The position numbers and the translations under genes were made by a program. From contig JAWPMV010000001.1 in assembly GCA_033391075.1 (NCBI GenBank), positions 6,014,001-6,078,000 on the forward strand: a stretch of DNA of 64,000 bases. The letters are read 5' to 3'. The stretch comes from Bacteroidia bacterium. Its GTDB lineage: Bacteria; Bacteroidota; Bacteroidia; J057. This document shows positions 39,898 through 55,593 of the stretch, one piece after another. The stretch's first letter is position 1. Each line of letters starts with the position of its first letter. The notes below the pieces were generated by a model, which saw only the letters and a list, made by a program, of their open reading frames with translations, was not told where the DNA came from and ran no database searches.

Positions 39898-40710
39898 TCA
39901 GCACAGCCATTTTTTGAAGCAAGGAGATCTGTTATTGGAAGTGTAGAGGGCTTCCTTGCGAGAAACTATCTGAAGAGCGAGGCGATCCTTAAAATAGGGC
40001 TCATAACTCTCTACTGCATCTATATGCACAAGTTCGGATCGATTGATCCGGAAAAAGAATTGAGGATCGAGTTTGGCTTCCAGTTTCTTTAGGCTTTGCT
40101 CAGCCAAAAGGTGTTTTTGATTGTGTCGGTCAAAGGCAAATACCAAGCCTTCCTCCACAGCAATCAGATGAATTTCTTCAACGGAAATGGGATACTTCTT
40201 ATGCTTTTTTATACTCAGTAGTCTTTGGGCGAAAGCTTGAACTGTCTGCGGGTCGCTTTCATTTCCTTTTTCAACTCGATCCCTTTTACTATAGACTTGC
40301 TTTATATGTATATGAATTAAATAGACAAAAGAGATAAGCAGGGGAAAAGGCAGACTAAAAAATAATTCTCTCCACCTATTGATATTCATACTTATCTGAC
40401 CGGAAAAAATTAATTGCATTCCCCAGTAGAAAACAAAAAAAACGATGCTGATGAGGCCAAAACTAATCCCGATCTTTTGGTAGAGGTTTGAGATCAAATG
40501 CCTGCTTTTTTCTTTCCACTTTCGATCCACAAAAGACGCGATGGTCAAACTCAGCCAACTAAATCCTGCTATGCTCATTGGGGCATCAAAAAAGAAGTGA
40601 ATGCTTTGGATATCGGCAGCGGTGATAAGTGCGATAAGTAAGGTGTAAATAAATGCTGCGGATAAGAGGCTAACTGCCAGAATAAGGTTCCTTTTTAGAT
40701 AGATGGGCAT
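39898..40710 (-). CDS. Membrane-anchored LytTR DNA-binding regulator
   Basis: 270 residues from ATG 40710; the frame is open to 40773. Four hydrophobic segments lie in the first ~145 residues (LILAVSLLSAAFIYTLLIAL, IAGFSWLSLTIASF, FGLISIVFFVFYWGM, PFPLLISFVYLIHI). The C-terminal LytTR domain reads VEEIHLIAVEEGLVFAFDRHNQ, LKKLEAKLDPQFFFRINRSELVHIDAVESYEPYFKDRLAL. It has the membrane module in place of a receiver domain, so it probably senses a membrane signal and binds DNA directly. No partner kinase is adjacent; targets unknown. Confidence 0.85.
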   Translation of the reverse strand: MPIYLKRNLILAVSLLSAAFIYTLLIALITAADIQSIHFFFDAPMSIAGFSWLSLTIASFVDRKWKEKSRHLISNLYQKIGISFGLISIVFFVFYWGMQLIFSGQISMNINRWRELFFSLPFPLLISFVYLIHIHIKQVYSKRDRVEKGNESDPQTVQAFAQRLLSIKKHKKYPISVEEIHLIAVEEGLVFAFDRHNQKHLLAEQSLKKLEAKLDPQFFFRINRSELVHIDAVESYEPYFKDRLALQIVSRKEALYTSNNRSPCFKKWLC

Positions 40711-48876: not shown

Positions 48877-50013
48877 ATGAATTTCATCGTCTCTTCGACA
48901 TCATTGTCGCGGCAGCTAAGCCGTATATCTGGGGCAATACCCTCCCGATCTGTATTACCTATTATCGAAAATTTTCTTTTCGAAATAGCAAACAATAGCC
49001 TTACAATCTCTACTACAAACCTGGAGACCTCTATGCAAACCCAATTGCCGGTAGAGGCACATGGGGAAAGCATGAAAGTTGCTATTCCTGCTCGTATCCT
49101 TCAGGATATCCTGAAGGCGCTTCCGGAGCAGCCCATATCCTTTTCTATAGATGAGGATAATTTTGGAGTTGAAATCAACTCTGAAAACGGGAAATACAAA
49201 ATCAGTGGAGAAAATGGAGAGGACTTTCCTCTCATTCCTCAGCCTGAACACGCAGAGTCTATTCGGATGCCTATGCATACCGTACTGAAGGCTGTGAGTA
49301 AAACGCTGTTCGCGGCTTCTACAGATGAAGATAAAGCTGCCCTTAATGGAATCTATTTTGATCTCAATGAGTCTGGAGCGACTTTCGTTGCTACAGATGC
49401 TCACCGACTGGTTCGGTATAGAAGAGTCGATGTAAGTGTGCCAGAGGCAACTAATTTTATCGTACCTCAAAAGGCTCTCAATCTATTGAAGAGTTCGCTT
49501 GACCCCAATGATAATAAGGATGTGATCATTCACTATAATGAGAACAACGCCTTTTTTCAGACCGATGATTTGTTGCTCGTTTGCAGACTCATCGATCAGA
49601 AATATCCCGATTATCAAAACGTAATACCGGTTGATAATCCCAACACGCTTTACATCTCTAAAACAGAACTACTAGGAACCCTTCGCAGGGTAAACATATT
49701 CTCAAATAAAAGTACGCACCAGGTACGTTTCTCTGTAAAGGGGGATCAGCTGGAAATAACAACAGAAGATCCGGATTTTGCGAATGAAGCGAAAGAAACC
49801 CTGAAGTGCCATTACGAAGGATCTGATATCGAGATTGGATTCAATGCTTCTCTTTTATTAGATGTGATCTCCAATGTCGATACAGAAGAGGTTACCATTG
49901 AACTTTCAGAGCCTAATCGTGCGGGTATCATCCTCCCCAATGTACAGGAAGAAGGAGAGAATACGCTTATGCTTATCATGCCGATCATGCTTAACAGCTA
50001 TGTAGGCATGTAA
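48877..50013 (+). CDS. dnaN: DNA polymerase III beta subunit (sliding clamp)
   Basis: 378 residues, standard length, three clamp domains. It starts MNFIVSSTSLSRQLSRISGAIPSR; later GENGEDFPLIPQ, LFAASTDEDKAALNGIYFD, FVATDAHRLVRYR, IIHYNENNAFFQTDDLLLVCRLIDQKYPDYQNVIP and the C-terminal tail LMLIMPIMLNSYVGM with the family MPIM/MPxR region. The protein forms a dimeric ring that tethers Pol III to DNA. Followed by a strong terminator, so it is transcribed alone; dnaA is not adjacent. Confidence 0.97.
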   Translation: MNFIVSSTSLSRQLSRISGAIPSRSVLPIIENFLFEIANNSLTISTTNLETSMQTQLPVEAHGESMKVAIPARILQDILKALPEQPISFSIDEDNFGVEINSENGKYKISGENGEDFPLIPQPEHAESIRMPMHTVLKAVSKTLFAASTDEDKAALNGIYFDLNESGATFVATDAHRLVRYRRVDVSVPEATNFIVPQKALNLLKSSLDPNDNKDVIIHYNENNAFFQTDDLLLVCRLIDQKYPDYQNVIPVDNPNTLYISKTELLGTLRRVNIFSNKSTHQVRFSVKGDQLEITTEDPDFANEAKETLKCHYEGSDIEIGFNASLLLDVISNVDTEEVTIELSEPNRAGIILPNVQEEGENTLMLIMPIMLNSYVGM

Positions 50014-50033: not shown

Positions 50034-50064
50034 AAAAGGAGAGCTTTAACGGCTCTCCTTTTTT
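50034..50064 (+). terminator. Intrinsic terminator of dnaN
   Basis: AAAAGGAGAGC / GCTCTCCTTTT perfect 11-bp stem with a 7-nt loop, T tract, 20 nt after the dnaN stop. Confidence 0.92.
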
Positions 50065-50066
50065 TG

Positions 50067-50086
50067 TTTCTACCGGTTTCCCGGTA
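50067..50086 (+). promoter_or_regulatory. Candidate operator upstream of the heme peroxidase operon
   Basis: TTTCTACCGG overlaps a perfect 6-bp inverted repeat TACCGG-TTTC-CCGGTA. Near-identical TTTCTACTGG sequences occur twice at 55089-55122, at the other end of the peroxidase/two-component locus. A binding role for the LuxR-type regulator is inference. Confidence 0.35.
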
Positions 50087-50269
50087 TATCCTTATTTCCT
50101 ACGAATATCGAAATTATGCTCAACTCGAAAGTAACATTTTCCAAGAATACTTGTGAAATGGTTTTTTTTCAGAGTTTGGAGTAAACAATGTGATTTATTC
50201 ACACGTATTTCATTTTTGCAACCTAAAAAAACACCGTTTCGCTTAGCGAAAACCCCTTATTAACTCCCT

Positions 50270-51712
50270 ATGAATCACGGAAGCTCATCATTGGATGTTG
50301 TTCGTGCGTTCAGATTATCGCCAAGGAAAGATAAAGAATCCCGAAAAGCTCATACTTCTCGTGGGATTACACCTGTTACGTTCAAGATATTTCCAGACTT
50401 AGCAGCTTTGGAGATTAGTGAGCAGGAACTATCTGTTCTTGCTGAAGCAATGCACACAGCTCGCACACCAAAAACCAATCCACGTATCCCTGCAGCATAC
50501 ACCTATTTTGGTCAATTTGTTAGCCATGACATCACAGCGATCCCCAAAAAATTCTCAGGAAAGCCCTGGGTAATTGGAGATCAAACACCTTGCATGGATC
50601 TGGATTCCGTATACGGGAAATTCGGAGAAAACCGTAATTCTTTTCTTACCAAGAGCCACCTGTTAAAAATCGGAACAAATTCTCTGGGTGAAGATGATTT
50701 GCCCAGAGATTCTTCCGGATCAGCCATCATTGCAGATCCTCGCAATGATATGAGCATTATGATTGCTCAGATACATTTACTCTTCCTCAACTTACATAAT
50801 GCATTCATCAAGCATCTAAAGGAATCATCCTTTAAAGGGGATTTATTTACCGAAGCGAAAAGACTCAATAGTTGGCATTATCAATGGATCATTGTCCATG
50901 ATTATCTGAAAAGGCTGTTGGGAGAGGAACTATTGTATAGCAAAATCAGTAGACCGGATGCAAAAAAAGCGAAAGTAAATCTGAGTTATTTACAAAACGC
51001 TTCTTTCAGCTATCTCCCACTTGAATTTAGCGGAGCAGCATACCGCATGGGGCATAGCATGATCCGTCCTTCTTATTATCTCAATGAAATTCCGAATGCT
51101 CGAAACCCCCGAACGGGTCGTGCAGAAGCCCGAGCTTTTAAAATTTTTGATTTCGAAAAAAGAGAAGCGGATTTAAGGGGAGGAAGAAGTTTACCAGCTT
51201 TCCACAGTCTTCAATGGAATCGTTTCCTCCAATTCAAGGATCATCCGGAGCCGCAATATTCTCAACGGATAGATACTTCTATGGCAGGTCCCATGTCAAA
51301 AATCCCTGGGGATAAGGATGAAGCGGTAAGTATGGCCAGGCAAAACTTGCTCAGGGGATTGAGTTTTGAATTAGCGTCGGGACAGACCCTCGCAAAAAAA
51401 ATGGGGATCAAAGCCCTCAAAAAATTAAGTAGCAAACAGGAGACTCCTCTTTGGTACTATGTACTTCAGGAAGCAGAGCACCATCATGATGGCACACAAT
51501 TAGGTCCCCTTGGAGGCCAAATTATAGCCGAAGTCTTCCTGGCAAAATTATTAGCAGATCCCGAATCTTTCCTGCATCAGAATCCGGCATGGAATCCTGA
51601 ACAAGAAGGAATCATAGAACGAGAATCCTCCCATTTCGAACTGAAAGACCTACTAAAATTTGCAGAAATGCCTATCAGTCGTGAAGAGCTGGAAGCACGG
51701 ATTCAATTTTGA
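50270..51712 (+). CDS. Animal-type heme peroxidase (peroxicin-like)
   Basis: 480 residues, no signal peptide seen. The distal His is in FGQFVSHDITAI, the catalytic Arg in ADPRNDMSIM, and the proximal His in FSGAAYRMGHSMIRPSYYLN. By alignment with myeloperoxidase, the distal His, Arg and proximal His are kept. The two residues that form ester bonds to heme (Asp before the His, here Ser; Glu three after the Arg, here Met) are not, so covalent heme linkage is unlikely. It oxidises halides, thiocyanate or phenolics with H2O2 in related enzymes; the substrate here is unknown. First gene of a probable operon with an unknown protein, a sensor kinase and a LuxR-type regulator. Confidence 0.9.
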   Translation: MNHGSSSLDVVRAFRLSPRKDKESRKAHTSRGITPVTFKIFPDLAALEISEQELSVLAEAMHTARTPKTNPRIPAAYTYFGQFVSHDITAIPKKFSGKPWVIGDQTPCMDLDSVYGKFGENRNSFLTKSHLLKIGTNSLGEDDLPRDSSGSAIIADPRNDMSIMIAQIHLLFLNLHNAFIKHLKESSFKGDLFTEAKRLNSWHYQWIIVHDYLKRLLGEELLYSKISRPDAKKAKVNLSYLQNASFSYLPLEFSGAAYRMGHSMIRPSYYLNEIPNARNPRTGRAEARAFKIFDFEKREADLRGGRSLPAFHSLQWNRFLQFKDHPEPQYSQRIDTSMAGPMSKIPGDKDEAVSMARQNLLRGLSFELASGQTLAKKMGIKALKKLSSKQETPLWYYVLQEAEHHHDGTQLGPLGGQIIAEVFLAKLLADPESFLHQNPAWNPEQEGIIERESSHFELKDLLKFAEMPISREELEARIQF

Positions 51713-51753
51713 TACTTACATATACACATCTTTCACTCTATAATCGTAAACTT

Positions 51754-52359
51754 ATGATGAGTTTGAAGCCCTATATAAGTCTGCAACAGAAATATCTGTC
51801 GCCAGATAAGGGCATGGAAATCTATTATTTGGGGGTATGCTTATCTGTGCCAAATGGCTATCAGATATACCAGCGAAAGCCCCAAAAGAAAAGTAAAAAA
51901 GGGAAAGTGGCTCAGGTCAGGTTTTTGCTTTTTGCCGCGACTTCCCAAATCAATGCTCACCCCAATGATTATCTCTATTATTTCAATAAATCTGATTGGA
52001 GTAATCTGGAATCTATTGAGGTTGAAGTGCTTTATCTGGAAGCGGGAGATATAAGCGGAGGTTCCTATCCCATCTATGATCCCTTTGACTATGATCAGGA
52101 TCAAAACTATTCTGAGAAAAATCTGAAGAGAGTCGGTTTTTCGAGGGTAGATCTTGGAGATGCCTCTGATGATTCTGACTCTGTCGGACTTCTTTATCAG
52201 GAAGAAGGATTGGGGCAAGAAGCACATATTCCAAATATGGGCTACCCTGATTTCCCAATTATTGATAAATTGAGTCGTAAGCATATTGCAAGAGCAGTAG
52301 GAGGAGGAACTTCCGGTGGGAGTAAACCACCACCTGGAGGAGGAGGAGATGGAGGTTGA
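51754..52359 (+). CDS. Unknown protein with Gly-rich C-terminal tail, in the peroxidase operon
   Basis: 201 residues from ATG 51754; a TTG at 51709 overlapping the peroxidase stop is an alternative. The N-terminus is MMSLKPYISLQQKYLSPDKG; a beta-rich middle has EIYYLGVCLSVPNGYQIYQR, VRFLLFAATSQI and EVEVLYLEAGDISGGSYPIY; an acidic stretch (YDQDQNYSEKN, DASDDSDSVG) follows. The C-terminus is a low-complexity run rich in Gly and Pro. No family recognised, no signal peptide. It lies 41 nt after the peroxidase gene and 32 nt before the sensor kinase gene, so it is probably translated from the same mRNA. Possibly a partner or substrate of the peroxidase; that is inference. Confidence 0.68.
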   Translation: MMSLKPYISLQQKYLSPDKGMEIYYLGVCLSVPNGYQIYQRKPQKKSKKGKVAQVRFLLFAATSQINAHPNDYLYYFNKSDWSNLESIEVEVLYLEAGDISGGSYPIYDPFDYDQDQNYSEKNLKRVGFSRVDLGDASDDSDSVGLLYQEEGLGQEAHIPNMGYPDFPIIDKLSRKHIARAVGGGTSGGSKPPPGGGGDGG

Positions 52360-52391
52360 TCCTGAATTTCCGAAAAGAAAATCATAGTTAA

Positions 52392-54362
52392 ATGAAAAAT
52401 TCCTATTCCCTCTCCTTTTTCAGAGTTCTATTGAGCATCATTTGTTTCTGCATTTATGGATGTAATTCTGAAAATGGAGAGGCAGGGAATTTTGCCAATC
52501 CGTCCAAAAAACATCAAAAGCAAGAAGTTGATAGCATTGGAAAACTGGCCTACCAAATCTACTCGCAGGACAGTGATTCTGCCATTGCCTTATCCCGTAA
52601 AGCATTACGCTTAAGTCAGGAATACAATCTTCCAAAAAGAAGTGCCCGTTGGCTGACTAAGGTTGGAGCATTTTATCGAATTGGCGGACTCTACCATGTT
52701 GCTGATGATTATTATCAGCAAGCCTTGGCGTCCCTCTCGACCATAAGGGATACCTTGTGGCTTGCATTGACCCGAGAAGAAATGGGCTTCAATTTCCAGC
52801 AACAGGGAGAGTATGAAAAATCTTTAGAGAATACCCGATATGCCCTGGATTTTTGGGGGAAACTGGATTCAACTGAAAAATTAATTGATGTTGAACTAGA
52901 CCTGGTTGAATACTTTTTGGACCAGGGGAAATTGGAGATGGCGAATGAAGAATTCGAAACCATAGATCGGTTGCTAGAAGACTTTTCCGGGAAGCATAGG
53001 AAAGTCAGAGCATCTCTGATGAAAGGTACGCTCCTTATAAAAGAAAATCATTTTGAGCAGGCAATTGCTACCCTCAAATCGGTGGATAGCCCGGAAGCCT
53101 TCACCAATTTAGGCTTTAGCTATCAGGAATTAGGAGATCTCCTAGAGAAAAAATCTCCGGGCTCTGGTAATAAAAATTATCTCAACTCAATAGAATATCA
53201 TCAACAATCTCTTAGCTATCATGCGGATAAAAAGAAGCTAGACAGATTAATCCTTGATTACTGGAATTTAGGGGCAATAAATCGTCGCCTTAAAAACTTT
53301 CAGACCGCTATAGATACGCTGAGAAAAGGAATTCAACTTGCCCGTGAAAATCGAGAGGGGATTATCCTGGCAGGTATGTTCAAGACTCTTTCAGATACCT
53401 ATGAAAATCTCAATATGGGAGAAAGGGCCCTAGAACATTATAAAAAATCCATTGCAATTCGAGATAGTATACAGAGGAATAAAGATGAAGCGGTAATTCG
53501 CTTTGCAGAGGTCCACTTTGATACACAGAAAAAAGAACAGGCAAAAATTTTGGCAGAGCAGGAAAGTGAGCGCCGAACCAAACAATTGCTCATAAGCATT
53601 CTTGCTTTCTTATTGGCAGGTGCTTTAGGCATCTTCTACTTCTATCGTGCACGTTCCCGAAAGATTCGGATGGAACAACAAGCTGAGATCAATAGCCAAA
53701 TCGTTGTAGACCTCATTCAAGAACAGACCATCGAAAATCTAAATTCCCGAATCGAAGGGCAAGAAGATGAAAGGACTCGAATCGCAAGAGAATTGCATGA
53801 TCAATTGGGCGGCACCCTCGCAGCTGTGAAATTCAGCCTGGAAGGCATGGAAAACAAAATGCCAACAGAACTGATAGACAGTTACAGAAATACCCATAAA
53901 CTCCTTCAGAGTGCCACAGATAATACCCGCACTTTATCCCACCAAATGAAAGCGCTTCATCTGGAAGATTTGGGCCTGGATGATTCCTTACAGCAATTTT
54001 GTGATGCCCTTAATAATAATGGAAGCCTGCAGGTTCACTTTAACAGCACAAGCATCTCAGAGTCTCATGTCAGCCCCAAAGCCGAATTACAATTGTATAG
54101 GGTAGCTCAGGAACTTTTACAAAATGTGATCAAACATGCCCAGGCTTCAGAAGTTTTTTTGCAACTTACTTATGAAGAAGATAAGCTAACGCTCATGTTG
54201 GAAGATGATGGGAAGGGTTTTAATCCCGAAAAGGTGAAATCCGGCATGGGTATGCAGAATATTGAAAATAGGGTTGCACAAATCGATGGAAAATTGGATT
54301 TTGACAGCCTAATTGGGCAAGGAACCACTGTAATAATCGAGGTACCAACTGAAAGAGACTAA
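52392..54362 (+). CDS. TPR-containing sensor histidine kinase (NarL-type HisKA_3)
   Basis: 656 residues. A lipoprotein-like N-terminus (FRVLLSIICFCIYGC) is followed by about seven TPR units (~45-370), for example LALTREEMGFNFQQQGEYEKS and RLILDYWNLGAINRRLKNFQ. One membrane span (~399-420, LLISILAFLLAGALGIFYFY) precedes a short coiled coil. The HisKA_3 dimerisation domain has the phospho-acceptor His469 in RIARELHDQLGGTLAAVK. The HATPase domain carries LQNVIKHAQAS (N box), LEDDGKGF (G1) and GMGMQNIENR (G2). Its partner is the LuxR regulator starting 47 nt downstream. Confidence 0.93.
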   Translation: MKNSYSLSFFRVLLSIICFCIYGCNSENGEAGNFANPSKKHQKQEVDSIGKLAYQIYSQDSDSAIALSRKALRLSQEYNLPKRSARWLTKVGAFYRIGGLYHVADDYYQQALASLSTIRDTLWLALTREEMGFNFQQQGEYEKSLENTRYALDFWGKLDSTEKLIDVELDLVEYFLDQGKLEMANEEFETIDRLLEDFSGKHRKVRASLMKGTLLIKENHFEQAIATLKSVDSPEAFTNLGFSYQELGDLLEKKSPGSGNKNYLNSIEYHQQSLSYHADKKKLDRLILDYWNLGAINRRLKNFQTAIDTLRKGIQLARENREGIILAGMFKTLSDTYENLNMGERALEHYKKSIAIRDSIQRNKDEAVIRFAEVHFDTQKKEQAKILAEQESERRTKQLLISILAFLLAGALGIFYFYRARSRKIRMEQQAEINSQIVVDLIQEQTIENLNSRIEGQEDERTRIARELHDQLGGTLAAVKFSLEGMENKMPTELIDSYRNTHKLLQSATDNTRTLSHQMKALHLEDLGLDDSLQQFCDALNNNGSLQVHFNSTSISESHVSPKAELQLYRVAQELLQNVIKHAQASEVFLQLTYEEDKLTLMLEDDGKGFNPEKVKSGMGMQNIENRVAQIDGKLDFDSLIGQGTTVIIEVPTERD

Positions 54363-54409
54363 CATTCTAGCGCTAAATCCCAAACATACGTTCTCTCCTG
54401 GCTAATAAC

Positions 54410-55054
54410 ATGACCCATATCCTGATAGTGGATGATCATGCGGTTTTTGCAGAATCGCTTGAGCATCGGTTAAATAATGAAGAAGACTTCAAGGTTATTG
54501 CTACTGCTTCTGATGCTGCAGAGGCAAAGGGATTCCTGACTGATAAGGCACACAGCATAAATATTGCCCTCCTCGATATCAGAATCAAAAACAATGAAAC
54601 CGAAGGCCTGGAATTAGCTAGTTATATCAGAAATTCCTACCGAGGCATCAAAGTCATTATGCTAAGCATGCATAGTGAAGGCTCCTATGGAAAGAAGATG
54701 TTGGATGCAGGTATAGAGGGCTATGTCTTAAAGAGCTCCCATATAGAGGAAGTTATCAGATATGTAAACCAGGGGAAAAGATACTATTCTAAAGAAATCG
54801 AGGATTCCATCGGTCTCTTTGAAAAGAAAAAAGAAAAAATAAAGGAATCGAAAATAGTCTTAACCAAAACAGAAAAAAGAATCCTCAACTACCTGGCCGA
54901 TGGTTTGAGTTCCCGTGAAATCGCGGAGGAAATTGGAAATAAAGAAGCAACTGTTGAAGTACACCGAAGAAATATCTTCGCGAAGTTTGGCGTTAATAAA
55001 GTAGCCCTCCTAATAAAAAAAGCCATTGCCCTCGGATTTATAGAAGTAAAATAG
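54410..55054 (+). CDS. LuxR/NarL-family response regulator
   Basis: 214 residues. Receiver domain: acidic pair in ILIVDDHAVF, phospho-acceptor Asp56 in IALLDIRIK, Ser in MLSMHSEG, and Lys in GYVLKSSH. The C-terminal GerE-type HTH spans ~150-210: LTKTEKRILNYLADGLSSREIAEEIG, then TVEVHRRNIFAKFGVNKVALL. It should be phosphorylated by the preceding kinase and regulate promoters through direct or inverted half-sites. The locus contains a repeated TTTCTACYGG sequence that could be its target. Confidence 0.94.
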   Translation: MTHILIVDDHAVFAESLEHRLNNEEDFKVIATASDAAEAKGFLTDKAHSINIALLDIRIKNNETEGLELASYIRNSYRGIKVIMLSMHSEGSYGKKMLDAGIEGYVLKSSHIEEVIRYVNQGKRYYSKEIEDSIGLFEKKKEKIKESKIVLTKTEKRILNYLADGLSSREIAEEIGNKEATVEVHRRNIFAKFGVNKVALLIKKAIALGFIEVK

Positions 55055-55088
55055 TTTTTACAAATCTCCCTTTTTTTGCCCCTCCCAA

Positions 55089-55130
55089 TTTCTACTGGAA
55101 ATCCCGTTTACTTTTCTACTGGTAAACGAG
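55089..55130 (+). promoter_or_regulatory. Paired TTTCTACTGG direct repeats and hairpin
   Basis: TTTCTACTGG occurs at 55089-55098 and 55113-55122 (24 nt start to start). The second copy overlaps a CGTTTAC/GTAAACG inverted repeat at 55105-55129. The same core is found once upstream of the peroxidase gene. Candidate operator; the function is inference. Confidence 0.35.
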
Positions 55131-55266
55131 TAGATATCCCGAATTCCTAGGATTTACCCTACGGAAAACCCTTATTTTCCTTATCGGAATCCCCTATTCA
55201 ATCCGCTAGCTATTCATTTGCACTTTTGTAAGGACGATACAAAGACAGCATCCTAACAATACTGTA

Positions 55267-55593
55267 ATGAAAACTTTAAAAATCCTTATTAGCGCGATCT
55301 GCATGATCTTCGGACAGGAGGATAACTCAACAATCAACAAAAGCCTTGTTTTCCAGCAAACCTGTGAATTAAGTAACGTACAAATCCCTATACAAGAAAT
55401 AGAATACCCTGAAATTCCAGATTCTCAACTTGCAGAAATTTTTTATACCGGGGAGGATAAAACTTCTGTAAAAGAAAACACAATCATGAGCTTTGAAGAA
55501 GGACACTTCTATTTGGCCGAGGGATTCTGGAAAAACTTTAGCACACAAACTGACAAACAACAGGACCTGCTGTTTATCGCGCAAAAAAACTGA
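55267..55593 (+). CDS. Small unknown protein, possibly frameshifted
   Basis: 108 residues as read. The N-terminus MKTLKILISAICMIFGQ is weakly hydrophobic and could be a poor signal peptide. The body is acidic (EIEYPEIPDSQLAEIFYTGEDK) and ends GHFYLAEGFWKNFSTQTDKQ, then a few residues to the TGA. Another frame opens at 55554 and runs 58 codons to TAA at 55728-55730 with protein-like content, so the real gene may be ~150 residues with one frameshift near 55555-55590. No family recognised. It follows the response regulator gene by about 210 nt containing the TTTCTACTGG pair. Confidence 0.5.
   Translation: MKTLKILISAICMIFGQEDNSTINKSLVFQQTCELSNVQIPIQEIEYPEIPDSQLAEIFYTGEDKTSVKENTIMSFEEGHFYLAEGFWKNFSTQTDKQQDLLFIAQKN

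Follow-up and report, generated by a model that had tools for sequence, protein, structure and literature searches.

Within a window of 64,000 nt from the genome of a Bacteroidia bacterium (the window being the whole stretch of DNA analysed; 9,489,248 bases were scanned genome-wide), a gene for a heme peroxidase is followed by genes for a small protein of no known family (here called P2), a TPR sensor histidine kinase and a NarL/LuxR-type response regulator. The locus raises the question of whether the small protein belongs with the peroxidase or with the kinase, and which of the four genes form the lasting unit. From comparison of related loci, the constant unit is best read as the small protein plus the kinase (plus, in most cases, the regulator), with the peroxidase as the exchangeable part. 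The comparison supports the gene order, the conservation of a trio of genes, the membership of P2 in a family, the linkage of kinase and small protein, and the occurrence of other genes in the position taken by the peroxidase. The fuller explanation proposed, to which we give about an even chance, is that the locus would be a modular signalling cassette with an effector gene in front, P2 as the cytoplasmic partner of the kinase, and the peroxidase as output; the architecture is supported, while the cue and the biochemistry are what we infer from it.

A preliminary description, made from this DNA alone, had proposed four plus-strand genes separated by gaps of 41, 32 and 47 nt, and had named the families of the peroxidase, kinase and regulator. 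Both statements were borne out, the former by the list of open reading frames (ORFs) and the latter by Pfam (PF03098; HisKA_3/HATPase_c plus TPR; Response_reg/GerE):

50270..51712, plus strand: heme peroxidase, 480 aa (PF03098, E 3e-20)
51754..52359, plus strand: P2, 201 aa, small protein predicted to be immunoglobulin (Ig)-like; no Pfam family above cut-off
52392..54362, plus strand: TPR sensor histidine kinase (HisKA_3 with H469, HATPase_c, TPR)
54410..55054, plus strand: NarL/LuxR-type response regulator (Response_reg and GerE)

The four genes probably form one operon, which includes a two-component pair in that the HisKA/HATPase kinase adjoins a receiver plus output regulator (Pfam and NCBIfam). 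The listed start of P2 was an in-frame TTG at 51709, which is possible; the ATG at 51754 aligns with the relatives and was taken as the start.

A small-protein family encoded before TPR kinases

The nearest relatives of the window kinase carry another small ORF without known family directly upstream. Altogether, a small gene before a TPR kinase was found at 30 distinct loci from nine families and two classes, with 7 loci in the family of the window, 16 in seven other families of its class, and 7 in a family of another class (f87). The 23 loci of the window's class came from three locus sets (7 of 20, 8 of 27 and 8 of 40, one of the last eight being recognised just by an additional search), and in f87 a small same-strand ORF preceded the TPR kinase in 7 of the 10 loci read (4 of 29 loci in one set and 7 of 20 in the next, 4 of them shared, leaving 7 distinct). 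In at least 11 of the 23 class loci the stop of the small gene and the start of the kinase lie within 10 nt of each other or overlap, and in 20 the kinase is followed by a LuxR-type regulator. No Pfam family was matched above cut-off by any of the 30 small proteins, and none of the 11 tested matched an NCBIfam family. These comparisons support P2 as the window's member of a so far unnamed family of Ig-like small proteins that evolves fast and is encoded immediately upstream of TPR histidine kinases. The preliminary idea that P2 is primarily a partner of the peroxidase did not survive the comparison, no recognised peroxidase being found beside the small gene at 28 of the 30 loci.

P2 is laid out as a family core (about residues 1-115) followed by a lineage-specific extension with a Pro/Gly tail. 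The family shares a start motif (x-P-x-hydrophobic-x-Leu/Ile), then a Tyr strand, and frequently an acidic D-A-D/E end. With a hidden Markov model (HMM) built from the 7 f87 proteins, 11 of 24 other small proteins outranked all 1270 background ORFs; the window P2 and the P2 of G301, a genome of the same family, ranked 3rd and 4th of 1294, with single E-values that are marginal (0.037 and 0.041). A leave-one-out HMM placed the window P2 at rank 2 (E 0.16). An AlphaFold model of an f87 member (14 alignment rows, P2 among them) was a 7-stranded sandwich with a predicted local distance difference test (pLDDT) score of 79.9 and a predicted template modelling (pTM) score of 0.72, and the fold of the small proteins would be loosely Ig-like, that of P2 being taken from this relative's model. 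The fold is called just Ig-like because Foldseek gave no match below E 0.001 in PDB or BFVD; the two best matches were the Bacteroidetes proteins 3k6o (E 0.013) and 3k0y (E 0.057, titled toxin-related). NigD-like chains reached Z 5.4 and 5.3, weak scores that tie with those of antibody and other Ig-like domains. A first AlphaFold model of P2 itself (two rows) was unusable (pLDDT 49.8), and the Foldseek search made from it was not used.

The description of the small protein as 'Gly-tailed' and of no known family was right on the second count, while the tail proved to be a C-terminal Pro/Gly extension of P2 and the G301 P2; other family members lack it or have another one. By hydropathy alone, P2 and most of the family have no export signal. 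No P2 match was found on plasmids, and no second P2 copy was found in the own genome at E 10; one other match in 295 genomes of the class (E 9.1e-5) contained two internal stops and was rejected as chance.

The own genome does hold a second cassette of small protein, TPR kinase and regulator (G000:C1, about 8065050-8068275; L115 3053-6273, minus strand), in which no peroxidase was recognised; at the end of its small protein, a GDPxNSTGHPKPILDD stretch occurs in two nearly identical copies. Longer small proteins at L116 and L118 apparently contain two copies of the beta-domain, as read by eye.

The link between small gene and kinase is clustered on kinase trees. On a tree of 70 kinases (23 linked to a small gene and 47 unlinked), the small-gene label changed 3 times, compared with a mean of 19.7 for shuffled labels, and on a tree of 91 kinases that included f87 (27 linked, 64 unlinked; simpler model) it changed 6 times, compared with 23.2; none of 500 shuffles was as low in either case. 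The 70-row count stayed at 3 without L147 and L090, which had been labelled 'none' though their upstream DNA is nearly absent. Separate trees, run without shuffles, gave 5 changes for the kinase end alone and 6 for the sensor half alone, and an earlier 38-row tree gave 2. The window kinase (L073_S) groups with the linked kinases of its own family, with the unlinked L205 in the same fork; the deep forks are weak, and a single clade of linked kinases is therefore not claimed. The small-gene link appears from these trees to be a clustered, fairly stable property of part of these kinases.

Kinases were collected with profiles of linked kinases. Left out of the 20-locus set were L079-L082, L084, L085, L091 and L092 (not full TPR kinases, or upstream DNA cut), and out of the 27-locus set L137 (271-aa upstream ORF, no Pfam family); L176, L177, L179, L181, L183, L185, L187 and L188 of the 40-locus set are not in the 70-row tree. 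For the 91-row tree, 23 loci of the 29-locus set were added, leaving out L230, L244, L246, L248 and L254 as repeats and L256 because its 186-aa upstream ORF could not be placed, and L250, with a lipoprotein-like upstream ORF, was labelled 'none'. The last 20-locus set contributed 7 loci with a small gene, and its 13 others are in no tree.

The TPR region of the linked kinases is probably periplasmic, being preceded by a hydrophobic segment at the N-terminus in 20 of 23 and followed by a transmembrane (TM) segment at residue 335-455. The window kinase follows the same order (N-terminal hydrophobic segment, TPR sensor region, TM segment near residue 396, HisKA_3, HATPase_c). Such kinases phosphorylate LuxR-type regulators.

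The peroxidase and the position before the small gene

The order peroxidase - P2 - TPR kinase is kept in G301, with identities to the window proteins of 44%, 30% and 37%, respectively. The linked kinase is the best G301 match to the window kinase (E 1.4e-112; the next is 1.7e-40), and the G301 contig JAUIKF010000008.1 (Bacteroidia bacterium Co_bin.347) was the sole match in a contig search with the P2 pair, a search with the peroxidase alone having given no match. The conserved neighbourhood that had been predicted is accordingly seen for peroxidase, P2 and kinase, but not for the regulator, which does not stand beside the trio. The best regulator match in G301 is located elsewhere and about 33% identical, and the next gene after the G301 kinase is a 130-aa ORF (L036 11681-12073) without Pfam family. 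Between the N-terminal motif and the catalytic core of the G301 peroxidase (L036 6550-8709) there are about 230 additional aa, which by themselves match no Pfam family.

At 11 of the 23 class loci, the small gene is preceded on the same strand by a gene whose end is no more than 150 nt away. This slot holds a peroxidase in two of them (the window and G301; PF03098 both times), a caspase in two (G041 and G115; PF00656, E 1e-13 and 3.4e-17), a subtilase in one (G210; PF00082, E 2.9e-27) and a papain-like C70 peptidase in one (G228; PF12385, E 4.1e-5). The G115 caspase also matches the PADLOC caspase model (E 4.4e-7), and no export signal was seen by eye in the slot peptidases and peroxidases. 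At 10 kinase loci without small protein (a plus-strand sample of those within reach, not all of them), the gene before the kinase is metabolic, regulatory or envelope-related and belongs to none of the four slot families. In G210, proteins of about 95-99 aa, several ending MSGTV...VIIA, are encoded divergently to two cassettes (three copies at L197 and one at L198); two of them were tested and had no Pfam match.

The window enzyme belongs by its domain to the peroxidase-cyclooxygenase superfamily, and a profile from the two cassette peroxidases matches lactoperoxidases (best E 4.5e-6). In an alignment of seven sequences it keeps the distal Gln82, His86 and Asp87, the catalytic Arg158 and the proximal His262, the Gln, His86 and Arg being invariant in all seven and the proximal His present in six. 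The residue roles are those generally assigned in the superfamily, partly as given in PMC4420034. In that article, the heme-ester patterns GQxxDHD and RxxE are called typical, with exceptions; the window peroxidase lacks this typical pattern, with Ser85 and Met161 in place of the heme-ester acids (Ser and Val in G301), while of five other bacterial peroxidases compared, three keep both acids and all five keep the Glu. Because these acids are replaced, the heme is likely to be held non-covalently and the oxidising power to be modest. No signal peptide was seen by eye.

Relatives of the peroxidase are rare, occurring in 6 of 395 genomes of the phylum (the own genome included) and 2 of 22 of the order. 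In five other peroxidase-bearing genomes of the phylum (one on a contig of 7.1 kb), no P2 or TPR kinase was found beside the enzyme. In one genome (G500, L044 1827-3496 and 4387-6372), the peroxidase relative lies about 0.9 kb from a divergent non-TPR HisKA_3 kinase and a LuxR-type regulator, a hint that such peroxidases can come under kinase/regulator control without P2. In another (G452, L047 5154-6446), it adjoins a gene with an extracellular contractile injection system (eCIS) core domain (PF13699, E 4.9e-31). This hints at extracellular injection machines carrying some of the bacterial peroxicins as cargo.

Operator-like dyads around the operon

The preliminary description had also noted the 10-mer TTTCTACYGG at 50067, 55089 and 55113, where it is indeed present, and had taken it as a shared motif through which the kinase/regulator pair controls the operon. 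The features at the two ends of the operon are:

48877-50013: preceding gene, DNA-polymerase clamp-like as read by eye, followed by the hairpin below
50034..50062, plus strand: terminator-like hairpin, 12 pairs with T-rich tail, called on consensus match alone; left operon boundary
50070..50087: operator-like dyad CTACCGG-TTTC-CCGGTAT, about 180 bp before the peroxidase start, 6/7 dyad matches
55092..55109: half-dyad CTACTGG-N4-CCCGTTT, 4/7 dyad matches
55116..55133: operator-like dyad CTACTGG-TAAA-CGAGTAG, after the regulator gene and about 135 bp before ORF 55267, 6/7 dyad matches
55267..55593, plus strand: 108-aa ORF behind the second dyad, a doubtful candidate regulon member

A fourth copy, not mentioned earlier, lies at 40423 on the minus strand. 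The window thus contains 4 copies, compared with 0.27 expected, and none of 100 shuffles reached as many. Genome-wide, the bare 10-mer is close to random, since it occurs 88 times compared with 59 for the reversed control, a distribution that by the preliminary description's own account speaks against the motif. The copies at 50067 and 55113 extend to 7-4-7 dyads with TAC...GTA ends, while the 55089 copy reaches just 4/7. Among 41 distinct 10-mer sites read of the 88, 6/7 dyad matches occur just at the 50070 and 55116 sites, and at least 5/7 would be expected at about 1% of sites. The 18-mer TCTACYGGNNNNCSRGTA, a pattern drawn from these same sites, has three exact matches in the genome: two flank this operon, and one overlaps the last part of an unrelated ORF. 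A search that tolerated one mismatch came out near background (20 rows compared with 14 in the control). A genome-wide TTTCTACYGG regulon was rejected, as the other sites read fall in ORFs or have no dyad, and a cluster of 10-mers at 5.467-5.488 Mb, promising at first, was rejected because its sites lie within ORFs. Dyads before the G301 peroxidase have the same build with other sequences, in DNA that also reads as ORFs, and were not used.

The window regulator shares Response_reg and GerE with regulators of the NarL/UhpA type, and the natural reading of the dyads is as putative NarL-family operators. The likeness to NarL sites consists of two 7-bp half-sites in a dyad with TAC...GTA ends; the half-site sequence differs from the NarL consensus, and binding here is putative. 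Control of the operon by its own kinase and regulator is favoured by the dyads that flank it, but gains little from the bare 10-mer. The 50070 dyad doubles in a terminator scan as a weak 6-pair terminator-like stem. ORF 55267 matched no Pfam or NCBIfam family above cut-off and had no relative in the other 21 genomes of the order.

Weighing the readings and relation to known systems

In the proposed cassette, the kinase would read an envelope cue with its periplasmic TPR domain, and P2 would be its dedicated cytoplasmic partner, either a co-sensor or an adaptor coupling kinase and effector. The phosphorylated regulator would bind the 18-bp dyads and switch on the operon, possibly together with ORF 55267. 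As output, the peroxidase would oxidise or cross-link targets with H2O2, either inside the cell that makes it or at the site of its release.

Several observations weigh against parts of this reading. P2 and the effectors look cytoplasmic, judging by their sequences, while the TPR domain would face the periplasm, a contact that the proposal does not explain and that therefore leaves room for a released small protein acting as signal. The linkage of the peroxidase rests on two genomes, and G301 has no regulator beside the kinase. Of the 11 occupied slots, 5 hold something else (a DNA glycosylase-like protein in 2, and a regulator, a secreted 170-aa protein and a second small protein in 1 each), and one of the 10 comparison genes before kinases without small protein encodes a cell-wall amidase. 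The effector would be optional, since the slot is empty (no same-strand gene within 150 nt) at 12 of the 23 class loci and no slot gene was recognised in the 7 f87 small-protein loci. Three of the 10 f87 loci have no small gene and are nested among linked kinases in the 91-row tree, so that the link is gained or lost at times; the upstream labels on the trees were set by the analyst, not blind. No single comparison gives more than weak evidence that P2 is homologous to the family. An HMM built from a mixture of all family members but P2 (less carefully than the f87 HMM) ranked the window P2 30 (E 4.8) and the G301 P2 49 (E 18), behind several background ORFs, the leave-one-out HMM put the G301 P2 at rank 163, and hhalign of P2 against f87 gave P 0.005 with a probability of just 7%. 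The start motif, searched as P.[ILVAMFT].[LI] in the first 25 residues and found in 13 of 22 small proteins compared with 48 of 659 background ORFs, was picked by eye from the same sequences. Finally, the 50070 dyad lies directly behind the terminator-like hairpin, and its function as operator is putative.

A plain two-component oxidative defence, in which the pair detects peroxide or stress of the envelope and switches on a cytoplasmic peroxidase, with P2 as maturation or stability factor of the enzyme, would agree with the gene order, the operator-like dyads before the operon, the conserved active-site residues and the position of P2 beside the peroxidase in both genomes, and the G500 arrangement hints that a link to a kinase and regulator without P2 is possible. 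We nevertheless consider it unlikely, since P2-type genes precede TPR kinases without a recognised peroxidase at 28 of 30 loci, and neither P2 nor TPR kinase was seen beside the peroxidase in the five other genomes of the phylum (one on a short contig, as given above). The missing contact across the membrane would be met if the small protein were itself the signal of the kinase, coming from neighbours or lysed siblings or by some unknown export. The periplasmic TPR domain would bind it as a cue that reports kin or danger. The tie between small gene and kinase group on the trees and the fast divergence expected of a specificity pair fit this, as does the ability of TPR domains to bind polypeptides, a polypeptide cue having been suggested for the TPR kinase FimS in PMC11053733. 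It is quite unlikely all the same, as P2 and most of its family have no export signal by hydropathy and a folded protein of 113-232 aa would have to cross the outer membrane.

Some protease inhibitors have Ig-like folds, and the predicted fold of the small proteins, with its Foldseek matches to 3k6o and 3k0y and its Z scores against NigD-like immunity proteins, might suggest an inhibitor or immunity protein that restrains a neighbouring protease or peroxidase. Most of the small proteins have no recognised effector alongside, and fold matches of this strength are usual for a common arrangement, antibody domains reaching the same Z, so that we regard this as improbable. Hardly credible is a role of P2 as precursor of a ribosomally synthesised and post-translationally modified peptide (RiPP), its Gly tail being modified by the peroxidase: the C-terminal Pro/Gly tails of P2 and the G301 P2 would suit such a precursor, but the other family members have no such tail or a different one, and no RiPP enzyme was recognised among the neighbouring ORFs of the window.

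Set beside what is already known (two-component systems, TPR kinases such as FimS, peroxicins and effector-swapping conflict systems), the signalling cassette proposed here shares parts with each. The literature searches made listed no system that joins a dedicated Ig-like small protein to a TPR kinase, a regulator and an effector that can be exchanged, judging by titles and abstract openings. Among PADLOC defence models, the peroxidase and P2 matched no family at E 0.1, and the kinase (TPR, E 0.0081) and regulator (best E 5.5e-6, in helix-turn-helix or receiver stretches) matched in general domains alone. A wider claim, which we regard as possible but doubtful, would make the cassette an undescribed and widespread three-component system of Bacteroidota, in which a diversifying Ig-like protein is partner or signal of a TPR kinase, caspase, subtilase, papain-like protease and a peroxicin heme peroxidase are swappable executioners, and the trigger is self or invader.

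The effector-swapping conflict systems of Kaur et al. have in common with the cassette a constant core with swappable caspase and trypsin- or papain-like peptidases (PMC7159879, PMC8195603). Their core consists of vWA/MoxR or STAND NTPases, whereas here it would be a small beta-sandwich protein, a TPR histidine kinase and a LuxR regulator; no Pfam match to a vWA/MoxR or STAND NTPase core was found in the four proteins and ORFs 55267 and 55672, the other neighbours in the window being checked by reading translations alone. In the main text of either article 'peroxidase' occurs 0 times, and no histidine kinase is listed among vWA-associated effectors (PMC7159879). In a few other genomes the place of the peroxidase is taken by a caspase or another protease, which points to an oxidative effector within a modular response system. 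Such a role would parallel the peroxidases of animal immunity as a convergent use of a shared enzyme family.

With the short bacterial peroxicins (family 5), the window enzyme shares PF03098, the distal Gln/His/Asp, the catalytic Arg, the proximal His and a single-domain bacterial build, a likeness in domain and residues; it differs from them in having neither heme-ester acid and in being tied to a kinase cassette. These short enzymes are placed at the base of the superfamily and their role is called unknown in PMC4420034, and the wider claim, if true, would give them a first physiological context. FimS/FimR of Porphyromonas gingivalis likewise combines a periplasmic TPR sensor histidine kinase with a response regulator, and its cue is stated as unknown in PMC11053733. 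No fimbrial genes were recognised at the present locus, and the window kinase matches the FimS model NF053520 weakly (E 2.5e-5, 22.8 bits compared with a cut-off of 600 bits), below the equivalog level, yet it may work like FimS despite this. The cassette bears both on what TPR histidine kinases sense (PMC11053733) and on what short peroxicins do (PMC4420034), the small protein before these kinases being a concrete, testable candidate for their partner or ligand.

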